A stretch of 64,000 nucleotides of DNA from Verrucomicrobiales bacterium (GCA_028033615.1 JAOFDG010000003.1:1-64000); one strand, 5' to 3'; positions 21,552 to 29,773 are shown, numbered from the stretch's first letter. The notes: generated by a model not told the origin, from the letters alone. Numbers and translations: made by a program.

Positions 21552-21745
21552 TTTATTTTGAGCATGTGACATTACTAGTTTACGAGTATGTCGCAAGTTG
21601 GATTTTTAATTAAATAACACTAAATTTTTTTAAACTATCAACTTTAAATTGGATTTTTCACATTAAAAATACATTATTAATAGGATTAAATGTTCTAACT
21701 TTTAAATTTTAGAACCGTAGGTTTATTTTGTGTCGATTATTAATG

Positions 21746-21819
21746 CGCTCCCTGCAGGACTTGAACCTGCGACCTACGGATTAGAAATCCGTTGCTCTAT
21801 CCAGCTGAGCTAAGGGAGC
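21746..21819 (-). tRNA. tRNA-Arg(TCT), target and left junction of the integrative element
   Basis: Minus strand gctccct-ta-gctcagctggatagagc-a-acgga-ttTCTaa-tccgt-aggtc-gcaggttcaagtcctgc-agggagc-g. Confidence 0.95.
21779..21819. repeat. Left attachment repeat (attL), 41 bp, within the 5' half of tRNA-Arg
   Basis: gattagaaatccgttgctctatccagctgagctaagggagc, identical to 29575-29615. Confidence 0.95.
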
Positions 21820-21864
21820 CTGTTGTAAATCAGTGAGTTATGGCTTAATTTATTTAGCCTCTTG

Positions 21865-21887
21865 ATTTTTCTACGGCCTTTTTCTAC
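21865..21887 (+). repeat. Left arm-type repeat (putative Int/Xis binding sites)
   Basis: atttttctacggcctttttctac: two TTTTTCTAC 9-mers separated by GGCC; exact copy at 29427-29449. Confidence 0.75.
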
Positions 21888-21914
21888 AGTTGTGAAGATA
21901 TCGTTCAGCACAAC

Positions 21915-23054
21915 ATGCAAAAGAAAGCGGCTAAAAAAAAGGTTAAATGGATTAAAACTAAGCATAGTAACTTGTATCGCAATAGCGATTCAGAAACGTA
22001 CTATGCAAGGATTCAAATCAACGGCAAGGAAAAATGGAAGTCTCTTAGAACTAAGGTTCAAGAGCAAGCCAAGCATCACTTAAGGGAATTGCAGAGCCAG
22101 TTGGCTGAGGCTGCAACCATTGTTACGGGGAAAGAGGCTAGTGTGCGAATGGGCCTCTTTATCGAAGAAGAGATTCAAGAAATAGAAAAAGATTCAAGTA
22201 TTAAGCCAAGCTCTAAGAAATATAAAAAAGAGAATTTCAAAGCCATTCTTAAAAACTGGAAGGGCTTAGAGGATACGCCATTGAAATCTGTTAACGAGAA
22301 GCAATGCAAAGACTTCTTTAATCGAATGTGGAAGAGGTATTCTGCAACCAGATATAACAATATGGTTTGGGCATTAAAAAATATTTTTAAGAAAGCTAAG
22401 AAGGTTGGAATTGTTTTCAATAATCCAGTTGAGGACGTAAAACTAAAATCGCTTAAATCCGAAACTCAGAAAAAGATACTGCCTACAAATGACCAGTTTG
22501 AAGCCTTGGTAAAAGAGGTTGATTCAGTGGTGGGCAGGGGAGGTAAGGCAAGAGGCCAATTAATAAGGTTTTTGGCGTTTACTGGGTTAAGGGCAAACAG
22601 CGAAGCAAGATGGGTCACATGGGGTGATATCGATTTCGAGCGAGATTGGCTCATAGTGCGCGGACACCCAGAAACAGGGACAAAGAACCAAAGGGAGACG
22701 CACAGGCGCTCTAGAGGCCAGTATTCGCATAAATTGCCCCTTCACGGCCGTCTTAAAGAACTTCTAGAGGAAATGAGGAAGGGAAGAGAGGAAGAGGGGC
22801 CTAATGAGCGTGTCTTGCAAGTACTGGAATGTCAGAAAAGCATTGATAGGGCTTGTGAAAAATTAGGTATACCCAGAATGACGCCTCATGATTTCAGACA
22901 TTTCTATACAACAAAAGGCGTAGAAAATGGCGTACCTATGTCAGTCTTAGGCAGTTGGCGCGGAGATGTTAATGGTGGAGCTACAGCACTTACTCATTAT
23001 TATCATATCCGTGATGAGGAACATCAGAAGATAGCTTCAAAACTAAAATTCTAG
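21915..23054 (+). CDS. int: Tyrosine recombinase/integrase
   Basis: FLAFTGLRANSEARWVTWGDIDFERD (catalytic Arg region), MTPHDFRHFYTTKGVENG (HxxR), LTHYYHI (Tyr). Confidence 0.92.
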   Translation: MQKKAAKKKVKWIKTKHSNLYRNSDSETYYARIQINGKEKWKSLRTKVQEQAKHHLRELQSQLAEAATIVTGKEASVRMGLFIEEEIQEIEKDSSIKPSSKKYKKENFKAILKNWKGLEDTPLKSVNEKQCKDFFNRMWKRYSATRYNNMVWALKNIFKKAKKVGIVFNNPVEDVKLKSLKSETQKKILPTNDQFEALVKEVDSVVGRGGKARGQLIRFLAFTGLRANSEARWVTWGDIDFERDWLIVRGHPETGTKNQRETHRRSRGQYSHKLPLHGRLKELLEEMRKGREEEGPNERVLQVLECQKSIDRACEKLGIPRMTPHDFRHFYTTKGVENGVPMSVLGSWRGDVNGGATALTHYYHIRDEEHQKIASKLKF

Positions 23055-23055
23055 G

Positions 23056-23592
23056 ATGTCTGAGAGTTTTATCACCAAATACGAAAGCCCGTTCAGATGG
23101 GAGGAAAAATGGCACAAAGCTATTTATGGCCGTATTAGCGATAATCCTCTTTCTAACCTATTTATTGACCTGTTCATCATTGGTCAAACTTTAGAATTTG
23201 TAGAAGACCCAAGGAAAGTAAAAGCCAAGGGGTTGCCAGAGCAAATTTTGGAGCGCCATGCAGTTTTAGAGCTAAAAGAATTTAAGAAAAAATTAGAGCT
23301 TAAACTTGGTAAACATGTTAATGCCTGTTTTCAGGCTGGTGATTCAAAAAAAATCCGCTCTTTAGAAAAGGTTGCTAAAACTGTTACTGAAAAATTTGAT
23401 ACAATTTGTGACGGAGATTTTTCAAATGATGTTATGGCTTTAAGTTTTGTTGAGGACATGGCGATGTCAGAGAAGCGATTTACTAGGTATTGCCTTAGGG
23501 AGCATTTCGAAAGTAAAGGAAGAGTTTTATCTGATGACCAGTTTTATGGAATTATAAAAAGGTTAGATATGGGTCCTTATTTTGTGAGCTAA
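23056..23592 (+). CDS. Hypothetical protein, 178 aa, directly after int
   Basis: ATG 2 nt after the int stop region; MSESFITKYESPFRWEEKWHKAIYGR.... No family recognised. Confidence 0.65.
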   Translation: MSESFITKYESPFRWEEKWHKAIYGRISDNPLSNLFIDLFIIGQTLEFVEDPRKVKAKGLPEQILERHAVLELKEFKKKLELKLGKHVNACFQAGDSKKIRSLEKVAKTVTEKFDTICDGDFSNDVMALSFVEDMAMSEKRFTRYCLREHFESKGRVLSDDQFYGIIKRLDMGPYFVS

Positions 23593-23723
23593 ATGCCTAT
23601 AAATACCTCAAAGTTCCTTTGTTGCTCTTAAGTGCTTTAAACGTCTTACTTTAGTATTTTTGGTGCAACCTTAATCCAAAGCGTTTTTCTGTATTAAGTT
23701 ATTTGTTGTTATTTATTCAATGA

Positions 23724-23924
23724 ATGACAAATACAACACTAAATAAATCAGAGCGCGCAGCTTATACACCTGATGAATTCGCTAAGCTATTTGGACGCGA
23801 AAGAACATGGACATATCGCCAAATTTATAAGGGCAAGATTAAACCTATTAAAGGTTTTGGAAGTCTGTTAATTCCAGCTAAAGAGGTTGAAAATATAATA
23901 GAAAAGGGGACTTCAGTTCGCTAA
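23724..23924 (+). CDS. Excisionase/AlpA-like helix-turn-helix protein, 66 aa
   Basis: AYTPDEFAKLFGRERTWTYRQIYKGKIKPIKGFGSLLIPAKEVENIIEKG is HTH/excisionase-like. Confidence 0.75.
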   Translation: MTNTTLNKSERAAYTPDEFAKLFGRERTWTYRQIYKGKIKPIKGFGSLLIPAKEVENIIEKGTSVR

Positions 23925-23928
23925 ATCG

Positions 23929-24240
23929 TTGGACTGCGAACTCTACTTTGACGAAGACAACCGGCCTATTCCTATAGAATGGCACGAGTCTATGCGTGAA
24001 GAGGAATTGGAAGCTAACACTCCAGAGCCTATTGAAGCCGTTCGTCTTTTAGAATTAGCAATAGCAGAGCAAGACAATCCAGAACAGTTAGGGAAAGACT
24101 TCATAGCTTTGGCTCACTTTGTTACCGCTGAAGGCACGCAGCCACTAAGCCAAGCAGAAATAGCTAAACGAATGAACGAAGACCGAATGGCAACATGTCG
24201 AAGGTTTAAGAGGTGGAGAAAACGAGGACTAAATATTTAA
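23929..24240 (+). CDS. Small protein with C-terminal HTH-like segment
   Basis: ...PLSQAEIAKRMNEDRMATCRRFKRWRKRGLNI*. Start (TTG or further upstream) uncertain. Confidence 0.55.
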   Translation: MDCELYFDEDNRPIPIEWHESMREEELEANTPEPIEAVRLLELAIAEQDNPEQLGKDFIALAHFVTAEGTQPLSQAEIAKRMNEDRMATCRRFKRWRKRGLNI

Positions 24241-24243
24241 AAG

Positions 24244-24278
24244 AAAAAACCCGGCGCTCTTGGAAAGCTAACCGGGTT
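24244..24278 (-). terminator. Putative minus-strand intrinsic terminator
   Basis: aacccgg (24248-24254) pairs with ccgggtt (24272-24278); on the minus strand the hairpin is followed by a U-rich tract, while the plus strand has none. Confidence 0.5.
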
Positions 24279-24280
24279 GA

Positions 24281-25018
24281 ATGAAGGGAATGGATAATTT
24301 AAAAAAGGATGAATGGAAGACAAGTAAGAACTTCTTAATGTTTCCACTAAGGTTAATAGAGCCAGAGCTTAACCCTCAGAGAATTCTATTATCAGCGGCA
24401 AGGCATTGGGGAGCTAATATGAATTTTCATTTAAGGAGCAAGCTGAAAGATGAATATATTGAAGAAAATTACATTGATAAATATCAAAGACAAAAATGGA
24501 CTGAAGATTCTGAATTTACAGCTGCTGGTCTCCAGGGTTTTGATTTTAAATCGACAAGCGAAAACCCATCCTACGGCTTAAAGGATGGGCATTTTAAGAA
24601 TACTGACACAATTATTAGATTAAGGCAGGACTACTTTGATTCGTGGTATAAAAATCATTGGTCAGACAAGCTGTTTACTACCCTATGCGCTATAATATCT
24701 AAGGTCGGAGCCAAACCTTTTTGTCCTGTCTCATGGCAAGAAGTTGCAGCTAGACAAGTTGGCTCAACAGACCATTTAGACTCTATAAGTCATCAGACAT
24801 TAACAAGGCAGGAAGTAAGAACGGTCGTAAATCAAATTCTGGAAAAAGGACTTCTAAGCAGAGTGGTATTCAAAAAACGTATTTCTTACTATTCTGTAAG
24901 ACTTAGGAAGGATGAATTAAAGGAGGCTATTTTGAAATACAAAACAGAGGGGGCTAAACGGAAAGGCCTAAACTTTGATATGAGTGCCAACCACTTTAAT
25001 AGCAATCAACCACTTTAA
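24281..25018 (+). CDS. Candidate replication-initiation/winged-helix protein
   Basis: Location directly upstream of and overlapping the iteron-like array; WQEVAARQVGSTDHLDSISHQTLTRQEVRTVVNQILEKGLLSRV reads as a wHTH. Family not established. Confidence 0.5.
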   Translation: MKGMDNLKKDEWKTSKNFLMFPLRLIEPELNPQRILLSAARHWGANMNFHLRSKLKDEYIEENYIDKYQRQKWTEDSEFTAAGLQGFDFKSTSENPSYGLKDGHFKNTDTIIRLRQDYFDSWYKNHWSDKLFTTLCAIISKVGAKPFCPVSWQEVAARQVGSTDHLDSISHQTLTRQEVRTVVNQILEKGLLSRVVFKKRISYYSVRLRKDELKEAILKYKTEGAKRKGLNFDMSANHFNSNQPL

Positions 25019-25078
25019 TAGAATTCAACCACATACCAACCACATACCAACCACATACCAACCACATACCAACCACTA
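24988..25078 (+). repeat. Iteron-like direct repeats (seven CAACCAC motifs; four exact 11-bp CAACCACATAC units)
   Basis: CAACCACTTTAATAG at 24988 and 25007; CAACCACATAC at 25026, 25037, 25048, 25059; CAACCACTA at 25070. AT-rich DNA follows. Confidence 0.85.
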
Positions 25079-25168
25079 TAATAGAAACACTATAGAAACA
25101 CATATAAACATATAAAATCACTCTACGTCTGACGACCGAGAGAGACTGACAAAAAGAAAAAGCAATTT

Positions 25169-25324
25169 ATGAAATACAAAGAAACGCACATGATAAGCGC
25201 CGAGATAGTAGAGGCTATTGAGAAGCTAGCAGAACAAGAGGGCAAAGAGGTTATAGACTTAGCTACAGAGCTAGTGGAAGATGGTTTTAAGTTAATAAGG
25301 CCTGAGAGGTATATTATTTTCTAG
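25169..25324 (+). CDS. Small hypothetical protein, 51 aa
   Basis: MKYKETHMISAEIVEAIEKLAEQEGKEVIDLATELVEDGFKLIRPERYIIF*; below the length cutoff of the ORF track. Confidence 0.5.
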   Translation: MKYKETHMISAEIVEAIEKLAEQEGKEVIDLATELVEDGFKLIRPERYIIF

Positions 25325-25873
25325 GTCGTAAATTCTTATCCACTCAATTTCTTTTTTAATCAACGTTCTTGGTGTTAATGTTCTTTGAATTACGATTGTT
25401 TCGTCAGTTATTGAAAGTATTTTGCCCGTATGCCTAATTATATTTCCACTAAATTCTTGATTGAAAAGTTTCCACTCAATCTCATCACCTACTTTCAACC
25501 CACTTAGCACATTTTCCCTATATCCAGGTCTTAATAAATTCTTTATTACTTTCTCCCTCTCTTTTTGACGCTCCTTATAACGTTCAGTTACTTCAGCTTC
25601 CCACTCTAACGATGCTTTGTGATCCTTAATTTTTTTACACTCATTTGCACCCCCAATAATTAATATTAAAACTAGAATGCTAATGAGCCACTTTTTGTAA
25701 TTTTTTCTCTTATTAAAATTGGATTTAATACTGTCTGATTTTTCTTTTTCAAATTCATCTTTACTCCTAAAAAGGTTAGTTGAACCGCACTCAATACAGC
25801 AATGAGTTAGCATACCTCCCACATCGAGAGACTTAAACTCAACGTCTTTATCACAATCAGAACAGTACAGCAT
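25292..25873 (-). CDS. Zinc-ribbon plus single-TM hypothetical protein
   Basis: MLYCSDCDKDVEF...THCCIECGSTNLF then WLISILVLILIIGGANECKK (TM), then a soluble C-terminus. Confidence 0.65.
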   Translation of the reverse strand: MLYCSDCDKDVEFKSLDVGGMLTHCCIECGSTNLFRSKDEFEKEKSDSIKSNFNKRKNYKKWLISILVLILIIGGANECKKIKDHKASLEWEAEVTERYKERQKEREKVIKNLLRPGYRENVLSGLKVGDEIEWKLFNQEFSGNIIRHTGKILSITDETIVIQRTLTPRTLIKKEIEWIRIYDLENNIPLRPY

Positions 25874-25888
25874 ATTTAAGGACTGGAG

Positions 25889-26413
25889 TTATTCTCTATG
25901 ATATATTCTCTTAAGCTGTTTCCAAACACAATAGTTGTCAGAAATTTCAGGTTTAACGAAATAGTCTAACTTTAATTTCTCACAAAACGATTCAAGATTA
26001 ATGTCTCTGTACCCGTTCTTTCTTAAAATTAGAGCAAAACACATTACCAAGTCTACGTGCCCGAAAGCTTTGAATTTTGGTTTTATTTCACCAAAATCTA
26101 ACTCCACTTCATATGAAAAGTAATATGGAATTGTATGATTATCTAATATTTCAATTTTACGAAGTTGAGAAAGATAAATGCGCTCAAATTTTCTGAAGAT
26201 AAAAAACCGCATCTGTTCAGTTGGTATATCCAAGTAATCACCCACTAATTCAACAGGAGTATGATGTGTTCTGTAAGTAGCAAAGCAACCAGATTGAACC
26301 TTTAACATTAGTTCTTCATGAATTACACCATGAGTGTTTGTCGGAGTTTGCACGCTTGCTTTTGGTTCCTGAACTAACTTCCACAAAAACTTTCTTTTTA
26401 CCTCTTCACTCAT
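25889..26413 (-). CDS. Hypothetical protein, 174 aa
   Basis: Intact ORF in the minus-strand cargo cassette; no family recognised. Confidence 0.6.
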   Translation of the reverse strand: MSEEVKRKFLWKLVQEPKASVQTPTNTHGVIHEELMLKVQSGCFATYRTHHTPVELVGDYLDIPTEQMRFFIFRKFERIYLSQLRKIEILDNHTIPYYFSYEVELDFGEIKPKFKAFGHVDLVMCFALILRKNGYRDINLESFCEKLKLDYFVKPEISDNYCVWKQLKRIYHRE

Positions 26414-26444
26414 AACCTAACAGGCGCGCGGGGTTCATGGGTTA

Positions 26445-27092
26445 TTATTCGTAAGTTTCTTGTAGTGAATTAACGGACTTACCTTTGTAGTTCCAAAACT
26501 TTTCAGAACCTTCTACAAGCTTGCCGTTCTTGTAGTTTTGTTCACTTCTTTTTCTTTCTCCATTCGGAAACCACCTAGTGGTCAATCCCTCCCTTACGCC
26601 ATCCTTATAGTTTATTGTCGCCTCCGACCCTTCTTCATGATAAAAAAACCACTCCCCATTCCTCTTACCTTCATTGTAGCTACATTTAGCCGCCAAATCC
26701 CCTGTATTATGCCAAGCAGTAAACGATTCACGAATTTTTGAACCATCCTCAGCCCCTAAATACCAAGAGTCTATTTGCTCTTGAGGAACAATTTTACCGT
26801 TAAATTTTATTCCGCAACCAGAACAATGTTTATGATTTTTTTTGGATGGTTGAAAACAATACCCGCAATAATATTTTACGAAAAACTTTGTATTAAAAAG
26901 TTCATTACTCATTGTTGTTAAAAAATAACCTCGATCTATACCCGAAGACCACGAGTGAGGTGCACGCTCAAGCAAAGGTACTGATGACCACATAAGTTCA
27001 CATGTTGAACATATGTATTTATTTGGTTCCACAAGCATTAGCAAATACTTGTAACTACATTTTCTGCAACGTGGATGACTTAAACTGGCCAT
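26445..27092 (-). CDS. Zinc-ribbon protein with MORN-like repeats
   Basis: CRKCSYKYL..YICSTC and YYCGYCFQPSKKNHKHCSGCG, then SYNEGKRNGEWFFYHEEGSEATINYKDGVREGLTTRWFPNGERKRSEQNYKNGKLVEG. Confidence 0.7.
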   Translation of the reverse strand: MASLSHPRCRKCSYKYLLMLVEPNKYICSTCELMWSSVPLLERAPHSWSSGIDRGYFLTTMSNELFNTKFFVKYYCGYCFQPSKKNHKHCSGCGIKFNGKIVPQEQIDSWYLGAEDGSKIRESFTAWHNTGDLAAKCSYNEGKRNGEWFFYHEEGSEATINYKDGVREGLTTRWFPNGERKRSEQNYKNGKLVEGSEKFWNYKGKSVNSLQETYE

Positions 27093-27237
27093 TATTTAGA
27101 CTAAGTAACTATAGAGTATTTTAATTGTCTAACAAACGTAGTAAATTTCAAGCCAAGTGTTACAAGGCTAAATCTAGTATAATAGATTCTAACCAACCTT
27201 TTGCCTATTCGGGTGTTACAGCACCCCTATAGGTAGA

Positions 27238-27783
27238 ATGAACATTATCGAAACTTACAGCCATGTCGCAAGCATCGCCGACATTGTGGCTAAGAATAAA
27301 ACGGAGCTGCTAAAGGGTATTAAAGCACCACTAAATAAAGCAGTACAAGAACACCAGGCTATTACCGATGAGGTAGAAGCACATAGCTATGGACGCGCTA
27401 GAGAGATGTGGAGAAGCGCCATCGATACAGGAAACATCGACTTCATAAAAGAGCATAAGAACAAAGATAGTTTTCAGGCTCATATGATTACGCTCAAGAA
27501 TGCTTACAGGCGAAAAGCAGAACAGTATTTTGATGATAACTTGAAACAGCATTTGGTAATTCTTCAGGAGCGCCTCAATGAAACTTTAGATAAAGAAATA
27601 ACTAAGCAGGAAGACGCAGACAAGAAAGCTTGTGAAGCTCTTTCCATTCCATTTGAGCCATCAGCACCAGCTAGAGCGCTAGCTAGGAAGAAACAGATTA
27701 TAAACAACAGCAGTTTCTCAAAGACCGGCTCACCAATTCAACAGATTAAAACAATTACCGACCATGAAGACTTCCTTAAATAA
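27238..27783 (+). CDS. Hypothetical protein, 181 aa, helical
   Basis: First gene of an overlapping plus-strand operon; no family recognised. Confidence 0.65.
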   Translation: MNIIETYSHVASIADIVAKNKTELLKGIKAPLNKAVQEHQAITDEVEAHSYGRAREMWRSAIDTGNIDFIKEHKNKDSFQAHMITLKNAYRRKAEQYFDDNLKQHLVILQERLNETLDKEITKQEDADKKACEALSIPFEPSAPARALARKKQIINNSSFSKTGSPIQQIKTITDHEDFLK

Positions 27784-28147
27784 AAAGAAGGGCGCTTTCA
27801 GTCGTTGGCTCAATAGCCTCACTAAAGATAAAGCACCTGAGAATACATTTACAAAACCTGAAGTAATCGAACCTGTAGACAATACAGACATAGAAAAGCT
27901 TAAGGCAGAACTAAAAGCTAAAGACGAAGTTATTAAAGATTTACAAGGCCGTTTAGATGCTGGTGGAGACGTAGCCATTACTCTCGCAGCATTAGGCTTT
28001 GAACCTTCAAGCCTTCCAGAACAGGAATGTATGGATGAAAGAATGAACCGTGAAGAACTTTGGGATTCGTACAGCAAGTTACCAGTCGAAGAGAGAAACG
28101 CTTTTTATTCTAAGTACAGAAATGAAATGGCCACATGGAATACATAA
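27764..28147 (+). CDS. Hypothetical protein, 127 aa, coiled-coil centre
   Basis: Overlaps the previous ORF by 20 nt; DIEKLKAELKAKDEVIKDLQGRLDAGG... REELWDSYSKLPVEERNAFYSKYR. Confidence 0.65.
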   Translation: MKTSLNKKKGAFSRWLNSLTKDKAPENTFTKPEVIEPVDNTDIEKLKAELKAKDEVIKDLQGRLDAGGDVAITLAALGFEPSSLPEQECMDERMNREELWDSYSKLPVEERNAFYSKYRNEMATWNT

Positions 28148-28311
28148 CCCCGGAACTTCAGAAGTCGGTGGCTTTAGCTCGATTGCGTTGTTCGATAATA
28201 ACAAACGAGATTCAAGAACTACAGGGGCGAATCAAGGACAACCAAGCTTACTTGGAGACGGTGAAAGAACGTTTAGAAGCAGCAATAGCCGCACACAATG
28301 AATTTTCTTAA
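28135..28311 (+). CDS. Small hypothetical protein, 58 aa
   Basis: MEYITPELQKSVALARLRCSIITNEIQELQGRIKDNQAYLETVKERLEAAIAAHNEFS*; ATG overlaps the previous stop by 13 nt. Confidence 0.6.
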   Translation: MEYITPELQKSVALARLRCSIITNEIQELQGRIKDNQAYLETVKERLEAAIAAHNEFS

Positions 28312-28462
28312 TCTGGTAGCGGTCGACATTATGGCAATTCGTCTTGTCACTAGTGGACAGTTTAACGGCCGTTACCTTTTAAGAAATCTATTAGCTGAAC
28401 AGCTACAAGTGGTTTCGGCAGCCTTCATTATTTTTTACGCATTTGATTACAGAAACTTTTAA
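28298..28462 (+). CDS. Small hypothetical protein, 54 aa
   Basis: MNFLNLVAVDIMAIRLVTSGQFNGRYLLRNLLAEQLQVVSAAFIIFYAFDYRNF*; overlaps the previous ORF by 14 nt. Confidence 0.45.
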   Translation: MNFLNLVAVDIMAIRLVTSGQFNGRYLLRNLLAEQLQVVSAAFIIFYAFDYRNF

Positions 28463-28466
28463 GAAA

Positions 28467-28721
28467 ATGAAAACGGCAACTATAACAAACAAGAGCGACA
28501 TTACTAATTTCTTAGCAGAGCTTACATACGCACATGCGAATGCTACAAGTGACGCTTCTATAAACCCTTCTGTAAATGTAACCGTTAAGGAGATTGAGAA
28601 AGCTCATAAGTTGGGACTCTTAGCGGATAGATATTACGAAACTAAACGTACTCTCATGGCCGCTCAGACACTTGAGAGAGGTAAAGAACTTTACGCCGGA
28701 ATTCTTCCATACGGCATATAG
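28467..28721 (+). CDS. Small hypothetical protein, 84 aa
   Basis: ATG at 28467 (MKTATITNKSDITNFLAELTYAHANATSDA...), 4 nt after the previous stop; the track's 28443 start is probably too far upstream. Confidence 0.6.
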   Translation: MKTATITNKSDITNFLAELTYAHANATSDASINPSVNVTVKEIEKAHKLGLLADRYYETKRTLMAAQTLERGKELYAGILPYGI

Positions 28722-28755
28722 ATTTGGACTAGACCGCAATTAATCCAATAAACGG

Positions 28756-28794
28756 CGCTCACCTTGTTATCATTCATTTCAAGGTGGGCGTTTT
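28756..28794 (+). terminator. Rho-independent terminator of the 27238-28721 operon
   Basis: cgctcaccttg-(13 nt)-caaggtgggcg then TTTT; ~11-bp stem with one GU. Confidence 0.8.
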
Positions 28795-28838
28795 ATTAAG
28801 TATAACCCACTTTATAGGCGAGTGTTATTGAACAAGGA

Positions 28839-29132
28839 TTAATCTTTGTGGTTGTTAGCCATCTTTTTTAGGTACCACCGCATGTCCGTTAGAACATCAA
28901 TTACAAAACCTGCAAAAAACATTTGAAGTGATACTGCAAGACAAATTGCAAAATTTGCAAAGCCTTCTTCTTCATCAATTGCGTTCACAAGAAATATAAA
29001 TGTGGGTATAATTCCTAGTGCTCCAAAAATTTTAAACAATATCGCCCATCCCGATGAAGCGGGAGACTCAGCTTCCTTCTCGGAAGAACCTTGTTTTTCT
29101 ATGCCTAAAAAATCTTCTGTTTCAGTGCTCAT
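28839..29132 (-). CDS. Small membrane protein, 97 aa
   Basis: SGWAILFKIFGALGIIPTFIFLVNAI...FANFAICLAVSLQMFFAGFVIDVL, two TM segments. Confidence 0.6.
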   Translation of the reverse strand: MSTETEDFLGIEKQGSSEKEAESPASSGWAILFKIFGALGIIPTFIFLVNAIDEEEGFANFAICLAVSLQMFFAGFVIDVLTDMRWYLKKMANNHKD

Positions 29133-29371
29133 GACTTTTGTTTAGCAAAAAGAGCCATCAAGAAAATAGCTAGTGGCAGATTGATTAAAATAGGTCTAGC
29201 AAAATAATACCAACTAGCCAAATCAAAACTCTCAGTATCACCCCCATACCTATCTAACCAAACAACATAATATATGATAAAATCTATTGAAAGTCCGATT
29301 GAAGCGATCAACGCTAATGTCCGCAATAGTTTCATATTCATAGAATACTCAAAAAGAATCTTGAGCGTCAA
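29129..29371 (-). CDS. Small membrane protein, 80 aa
   Basis: 4-nt overlap with the next minus ORF; LIASIGLSIDFIIYYVVWLD and PILINLPLAIFLMALFA TM segments. Confidence 0.55.
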   Translation of the reverse strand: MTLKILFEYSMNMKLLRTLALIASIGLSIDFIIYYVVWLDRYGGDTESFDLASWYYFARPILINLPLAIFLMALFAKQKS

Positions 29372-29426
29372 TCATTACAGCGAGCATTAAGTGATAGGCG
29401 ATTGTGGTTATAGGGTTATGATTAAA

Positions 29427-29449
29427 ATTTTTCTACGGCCTTTTTCTAC
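29427..29449 (+). repeat. Right arm-type repeat (putative Int/Xis binding sites)
   Basis: atttttctacggcctttttctac, identical to 21865-21887 and in the same orientation. Confidence 0.75.
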
Positions 29450-29574
29450 GGTCATGCACCAAATTTATCGCAAACTGTGAAAAGCAGTGCAATGGGGAGA
29501 AAACGAAAGAGCTATTTTTGTAGGAAAATGAACGTTTAGCAACGTCTTGCAAAAAGGGAAAATGCTCAAATTGT

Positions 29575-29615
29575 GATTAGAAATCCGTTGCTCTATCCAG
29601 CTGAGCTAAGGGAGC
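29575..29615. repeat. Right attachment repeat (attR), partial tRNA-Arg 5' half
   Basis: Exact copy of 21779-21819. The 3' half of the tRNA is absent here. Confidence 0.95.
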
Positions 29616-29773
29616 AGTCTTAAAATTAATTTAATCGACACTTAACATCTGGTAGGTTGATATGCAAATAAACTGAGTATCATTGCTAAATTAATATTCT
29701 TCCTAAAAATAAAGTGCATTTACTTATACTAATTCATTGTAAGATAGATATAATTTGCTATTAAATCTTAGTT

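Follow-up and report, generated by a model that had tools for sequence, protein, structure and literature searches.

The window, by which we mean the whole stretch of 64,000 nt analysed here (Verrucomicrobiales bacterium, GCA_028033615.1, JAOFDG010000003.1:1-64000), very probably holds an element that was inserted into tRNA-Arg(TCT) by a tyrosine integrase, that supplied the 5' half of the tRNA gene itself, and that belongs to, or is a divergent relative of, what looks like a lineage of integrases using tRNA 5' halves. Islands replacing the 5' half of a tRNA are a known minority class. A description of an integrase group with this polarity as its rule was not found in open-access text, which is weak evidence. 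The features are as follows.

21745..21819, minus strand: reconstituted tRNA-Arg(TCT) (ARAGORN, Rfam, empty-site comparison)
21779..21819, minus strand: attL-side copy of the 41-bp core, tRNA nt 1-41 (exact direct repeat)
21820..21914, minus strand: element-derived DNA now at the 5' flank and promoter position of the tRNA (no counterpart 5' of the tRNA in the empty-site congener)
21828..21840, minus strand: tentative IHF-consensus-like site TAACTCACTGATT, 1 mismatch to YAANNNNTTGATW
21865..21890, plus strand: proximal tandem arm-type repeat TTTTTCTACGG-CC-TTTTTCTACAG, 13-bp period (near-perfect repeat pair)
21915..23054, plus strand: tyrosine integrase, 379 aa (Phage_integrase E 3e-12; phrog_1 E 3e-36)
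23724..23924, plus strand: HTH_17 (excisionase/AlpA-like) protein (domain matches; homologues in 26 fetched loci)
Within 23056..29371, no strand given: other element ORFs, uncharacterised cargo of no confident family: 23056-23592, 23929-24240, 24281-25018, 25292-25873, 25889-26413, 26445-27092, 27238-27783, 27764-28147, 28443-28721, 28839-29132 and 29129-29371
29427..29452, plus strand: distal tandem arm-type repeat (25/26 identical to 21865-21890)
29575..29615, minus strand: attR-side core copy, the displaced native 5' half of tRNA-Arg (repeat comparison)
29616..29773, minus strand: original tRNA-Arg 5' flank, split off by the element (matches the tRNA upstream region of congener G003)

The tRNA-Arg(TCT) gene and its empty site

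ARAGORN placed tRNA-Arg(TCT) at 21745-21819 on the minus strand, with the anticodon at position 35, and Rfam found the same gene at 21746-21819 (73 bits). An exact direct repeat of 41 nt (21779-21819, 29575-29615) corresponds to tRNA nt 1-41; it takes in the acceptor 5' strand, the D arm and the anticodon arm through its loop, and stops two bases into the 3' anticodon strand. A perfect 41-nt repeat of a tRNA half is not due to chance. The earlier note had claimed this repeat, a minus-strand tRNA with its 5' end at 21819 and nt 1-41 repeated, and an intact tRNA at the integrase end; the direct repeat search, the two tRNA predictions and an integrase ORF, divergent from the tRNA and beginning at 21915, 95 bp beyond the tRNA 5' end, bear this out. 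As in Islander-type islands, the tRNA and a tRNA fragment of the same orientation flank an integrase gene, and as in the 5'-fragment subclass the displaced nt 1-41 (29575-29615) lies upstream of the tRNA. The 3' part of the rebuilt gene (21745-21778) is native, and its 5' part (21779-21819) lies inside the crossover or identity block. One full-length copy only was found when the incomplete host genome (a draft of 108 contigs, 54% complete) and congeners were searched, the weaker matches resembling other tRNAs, and tRNA-Arg(TCT) appears to be single-copy in the host.

Although islands using tRNA 3' halves are about 24 times commoner (PMC4383910), an ordinary island of that kind with its orientation misread has practically no probability and is refuted by the sequence, as the repeat is tRNA nt 1-41 and the complete tRNA is found next to the integrase gene, which is divergent from it. 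A mirror-image arrangement, in which the ancestral state would be the intact tRNA with what lies right of 21819, and the element would have brought the 29575 fragment as its attP core, is formally equivalent; the 41-bp blocks are identical and therefore cannot tell which copy is native. Empty-site relatives were sought via the scpA-like protein encoded right of the element. Congener G003 (locus L005) carries tRNA-Lys, tRNA-Arg and scpA in the same order as the window, with the element absent. Its left flank through the tRNA is 94% identical to the window, and its right flank is 96% identical from 29575 (within the tRNA) onward. In the 120 bp 5' of its tRNA-Arg, G003 has the sequence that lies right of 29615 in the window and lacks the element sequence found from 21820 onward. 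An ancestral flank beginning at 21820 is refuted by this empty site, and the mirror-image arrangement is very improbable. Four further congeners (G009, G006, G005 and G007) have the tRNA directly upstream of the scpA-like gene and lack the element; together with G003 they show that the polarity is real, and from the G003 empty site it follows that the element replaced the tRNA 5' half and upstream region. A precise empty site in a relative, as is asked of Islander-type islands, is hence at hand. The comparison had been set beforehand as the refuting test for the claim that the 5' half and upstream region are element-derived and the original upstream region is stranded right of 29615; G003 has the sequence from 29616 onward upstream of its tRNA, and the claim survived.

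A different insert of ~0.9 kb, in which no integrase was seen, lies in the same tRNA-Arg of G008 (L010:349-382, 1279-1353) with the 3' end duplicated. Taken with the element in the window, the same tRNA gene has been hit with both polarities within one genus.

We propose that a tyrosine integrase brought the 7.8-kb element (21820-29574 and one copy of the core) into tRNA-Arg(TCT), by recombining an attP that holds the first 41 nt of the tRNA with the chromosomal tRNA gene. The identity block and both element junctions are seen directly; the crossover would fall in the anticodon-arm region, at a point that we infer. By bringing its own 5' half the element has rebuilt the tRNA at the integrase end, divergent from the integrase gene, and has pushed the native 5' half and native upstream region to the far end, as the empty site shows. 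The recombination module would comprise paired arm sites by each core copy, the integrase and the HTH excisionase-like protein.

The integrase and its relatives

The integrase has the catalytic residues R226, K257, H325, R328 and Y362, with D351 at the H/W position. Among 95 integrase sequences, 92 have the catalytic H at that position, and D was found only in the window integrase and in viral contig L183. The window integrase is a long branch (best identity about 38%), and this and D351 make the current mobility of the element uncertain.

Single-query integrase scans of viral and genome contigs gave no relatives; a query built from a 14-sequence integrase alignment found them. The best 80 loci were kept from genome contigs, mostly Verrucomicrobiota drafts, and at least three of the 80 coincide with family genomes already examined. 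A tRNA was present within 600 bp of the integrase gene in 72 among these 80 best relatives kept. In 67 of the 72 it was divergent on the 5' side, in three (L149, L160 and L170) a tRNA of the same orientation preceded the integrase gene, and two loci were called convergent, where a degenerate tRNA-like sequence nevertheless precedes the integrase gene. The three same-orientation loci, whose integrases are of the 5'-half group, suggest an occasional reversal to 3'-half use. If the 5'-half integrase group is defined by a divergent tRNA 70-300 bp from the integrase gene, and by tandem repeats of period 13 that lie near -64 to -78 relative to the tRNA and again some 125-145 bp within the far end, the window fits on both counts, its tRNA being 95 bp away. 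These loci include 16 tRNA types, to which Val(TAC) and Lys(TTT) were added from other loci; Arg, Ser, Thr, Met, Leu, Lys, Pro, His and Cys are among the types used.

Displaced fragments running from nt 1 to about 37-46 were detected in 13 relatives, namely seven loci (L105, L112, L113, L130, L146, L151 and L173) and six family genomes, and no 3' fragment was seen at any of the 13 far ends. For G098 the fragment is on the integrase contig, giving an element of ~79 kb, and most far-end fragments of the family genomes sit on contigs other than that of the integrase, including those of G024 and G041 (94% match). The far-end fragments of the family relatives were missed when the search was confined to 20 kb or to the contig, some elements being large and contigs often ending at the repeat, and came to light when whole genomes were searched. 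These short repeats fragment draft assemblies, so islands of this kind are probably underrepresented in counts.

Some single loci may be mentioned here. The contig of L064 (G018:C40 end) stops at about nt 41 of a tRNA-Leu beside an integrase of the 5'-half group. Contig G041:C37 carries two nearly full-length copies of tRNA-Arg(CCT), one at 232-305 of locus L053 and the other ~57 kb away at C37:61589-61660, with 72 nt identical; one of them adjoins an integrase of the 5'-half group. The one 3' fragment noted close to a divergent locus, L116, is on the opposite side of the tRNA and probably belongs to a separate element.

In the integrase tree the divergent label was clustered beyond shuffles (0/500 as low). 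The window integrase was joined to viral contig L183 with support of 81/92, a placement that is unsure under the long-branch warning. The 15 other integrase loci of the host family showed no tRNA in the stretch fetched, and the best PF00589 loci of the family appear, from score and length, to be housekeeping Xer recombinases; hence neither gave a usable control. It looks as if the element is a member, or a divergent relative, of a Verrucomicrobiota integrase lineage habitually using tRNA 5' halves.

Putative arm-type repeats and other element features

Each 26-bp block is made of two TTTTTCTACRG units with a period of 13 bp, and one block lies just inside each core copy (-68 from the tRNA; -147/-134 at the far end). 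Tandem repeats so placed, beside each core copy, are the layout expected of arm-type sites of lambda-type integrases. Judged from position, repeat structure and conservation, the blocks are putative integrase arm sites. A period of 13 was found for the best tandem repeat in 69 of the 80 intergenic regions of the relatives, and in nearly all cases this repeat lies 64-78 nt 5' of the tRNA. Where the far end of a relative was examined, corresponding repeats are found again some 120-145 bp inward of the displaced fragment, but in L151 and L173 one of the units is weak or absent; the fetched stretches of G098 and G100 begin within or close to the far-end repeat. The three polarity-reversed relatives have an arm-to-anticodon distance of 87-92 against a median of 88, and the repeat is weak in two of them.

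The 26-bp repeats at 21865 and 29427 are unlikely to serve as promoter or repressor operators in place of integrase arm sites. By inspection, the proximal repeat of related loci does overlap a plausible integrase promoter (TTGACA-like, then nATACT-like, on the integrase strand). On the other hand, the distance of the repeat to the integrase gene varies from 4 to 236 bp while that to the tRNA, and so to the core, is near constant, and the repeats hence track the core and not the integrase start. Moreover the pair recurs at the far end, and its sequence differs from element to element with the spacing kept. Arm-site and operator roles could also be combined, by analogy with KplE1 (PMC2951348). 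A role of the tandem repeats as -10 boxes of the tRNA promoter was set aside, given their position some 70 bp upstream of the tRNA and their second occurrence at the far end.

At L140 (before 1359) and L157 (before 10001) two elements with different arm-repeat sequences appear to sit at one tRNA. On inspection these are apparent tandem arrays, in which an arm repeat and 5' core are joined to the arm and integrase gene of another element.

An IHF-like motif with at most two mismatches was present ~23 nt 5' of the tRNA in 37 of 77 relatives, compared with 17.6 +/- 3.6 in shuffles, a moderate signal that is no more than suggestive of an IHF-type site near the tRNA in the group.

From its position and conservation, the HTH_17 protein at 23724-23924 is a probable recombination directionality factor. 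PADLOC gave no match in ten cargo proteins, NCBIfam tried on cargo proteins gave only two weak matches (25295-25873), both far below cut-off. A tblastn search of phage records gave no match. The predicted structure of ORF 24281-25018 was uninformative (pLDDT 35). The end of this ORF holds tandem repeats at 24987-25087, with 19-nt and 11-nt units (CAACCACATAC x4.6), possibly iterons of a replication origin.

Known systems and transcription of the rebuilt tRNA

Of 3919 islands in Islander, 159 carry a 5' tDNA fragment and 3760 a 3' fragment (PMC4383910), in line with the earlier statement that most tRNA islands duplicate the 3' half. The element resembles the 5'-fragment islands in having an intact tRNA at one end, a 5' fragment at the other and a tyrosine integrase between; that class is defined by anatomy and is a small minority, whereas here most members of one integrase group have the arrangement. 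The archaeal pTN3 of Thermococcales (IntpTN3) likewise has a 41-bp core made of the tRNA 5' half including the anticodon (PMC5495485, PMC8371274), and its rebuilt tRNA is separated from the original promoter (PMC5495485), as is that of the window. Such separation is seldom seen in bacteria, according to PMC8371274 citing Williams 2002. In contrast to pTN3, where the integrase gene is split on integration, the ORF at 21915-23054 is intact beside the tRNA, and the element has arm-like repeats. In a survey of 1273 tRNA-integrase pairs, the SIT and OD (opposite, divergent) classes together made up less than 8%, and OD pairs had att arm sites between integrase gene and tRNA, with the integrase predicted to be negatively autoregulated (PMC2951348). 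The window pair is also divergent with arm-like sites between, but OD accounts for 67 of 72 pairs in the relatives of its integrase. When HK022 integrates at torS/torT, a host gene loses its native promoter and receives one from the phage (PMC6814406). Here too the native upstream region is removed, but the HK022 target is protein-coding with demonstrated promoter activity, while the window target is a tRNA for which we infer the promoter.

Element DNA likely drives tRNA-Arg expression now, which follows from the anatomy if the tRNA is expressed; transcription would come from a promoter in 21820-21914 or by read-through. A consensus promoter scan on the tRNA strand close to the tRNA gave none above chance in either the element or the native upstream region. 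Conserved columns point to a candidate native promoter at ~29641-29667 (TTGCAT-N14-TGTTAAG-like).

We give even chances to a functionally neutral junction, where a weak or incidental element promoter or read-through serves the tRNA and has no regulatory meaning. The element's tRNA flank, in which no consensus promoter was found, fits such neutrality, as do the 77 non-redundant related regions, where no canonical promoter pattern stands out 5' of the tRNAs and the most conserved motif matches a promoter no better than an IHF-like site. Against it, tRNA-Arg(TCT) appears single-copy and the arrangement occurs with 16 or more tRNA types, which means that some transcription from the element side has to suffice in most cases.

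Elements taking a tRNA 5' half must supply the tRNA promoter, a rarely studied dependency, and the window offers a clean empty site together with relatives in which the 5'-half arrangement is the rule. With at least 16 tRNA types, they provide a natural set in which to study the expression of hijacked tRNA genes and the reasons why this polarity is shunned by most islands. More speculatively, and as less likely than not, we suggest a Verrucomicrobiota-centred integrase lineage that is specialised on the 5' halves of many tRNAs, has a fixed attP geometry and places the tRNAs under element DNA. If so, each insertion would bring a host tRNA, in many cases probably present in a single copy, under element DNA, with integrase arm sites and a possible IHF-type site occupying its 5' flank, and an essential tRNA whose expression is linked to the element could make the element more stable or come under integrase regulation.
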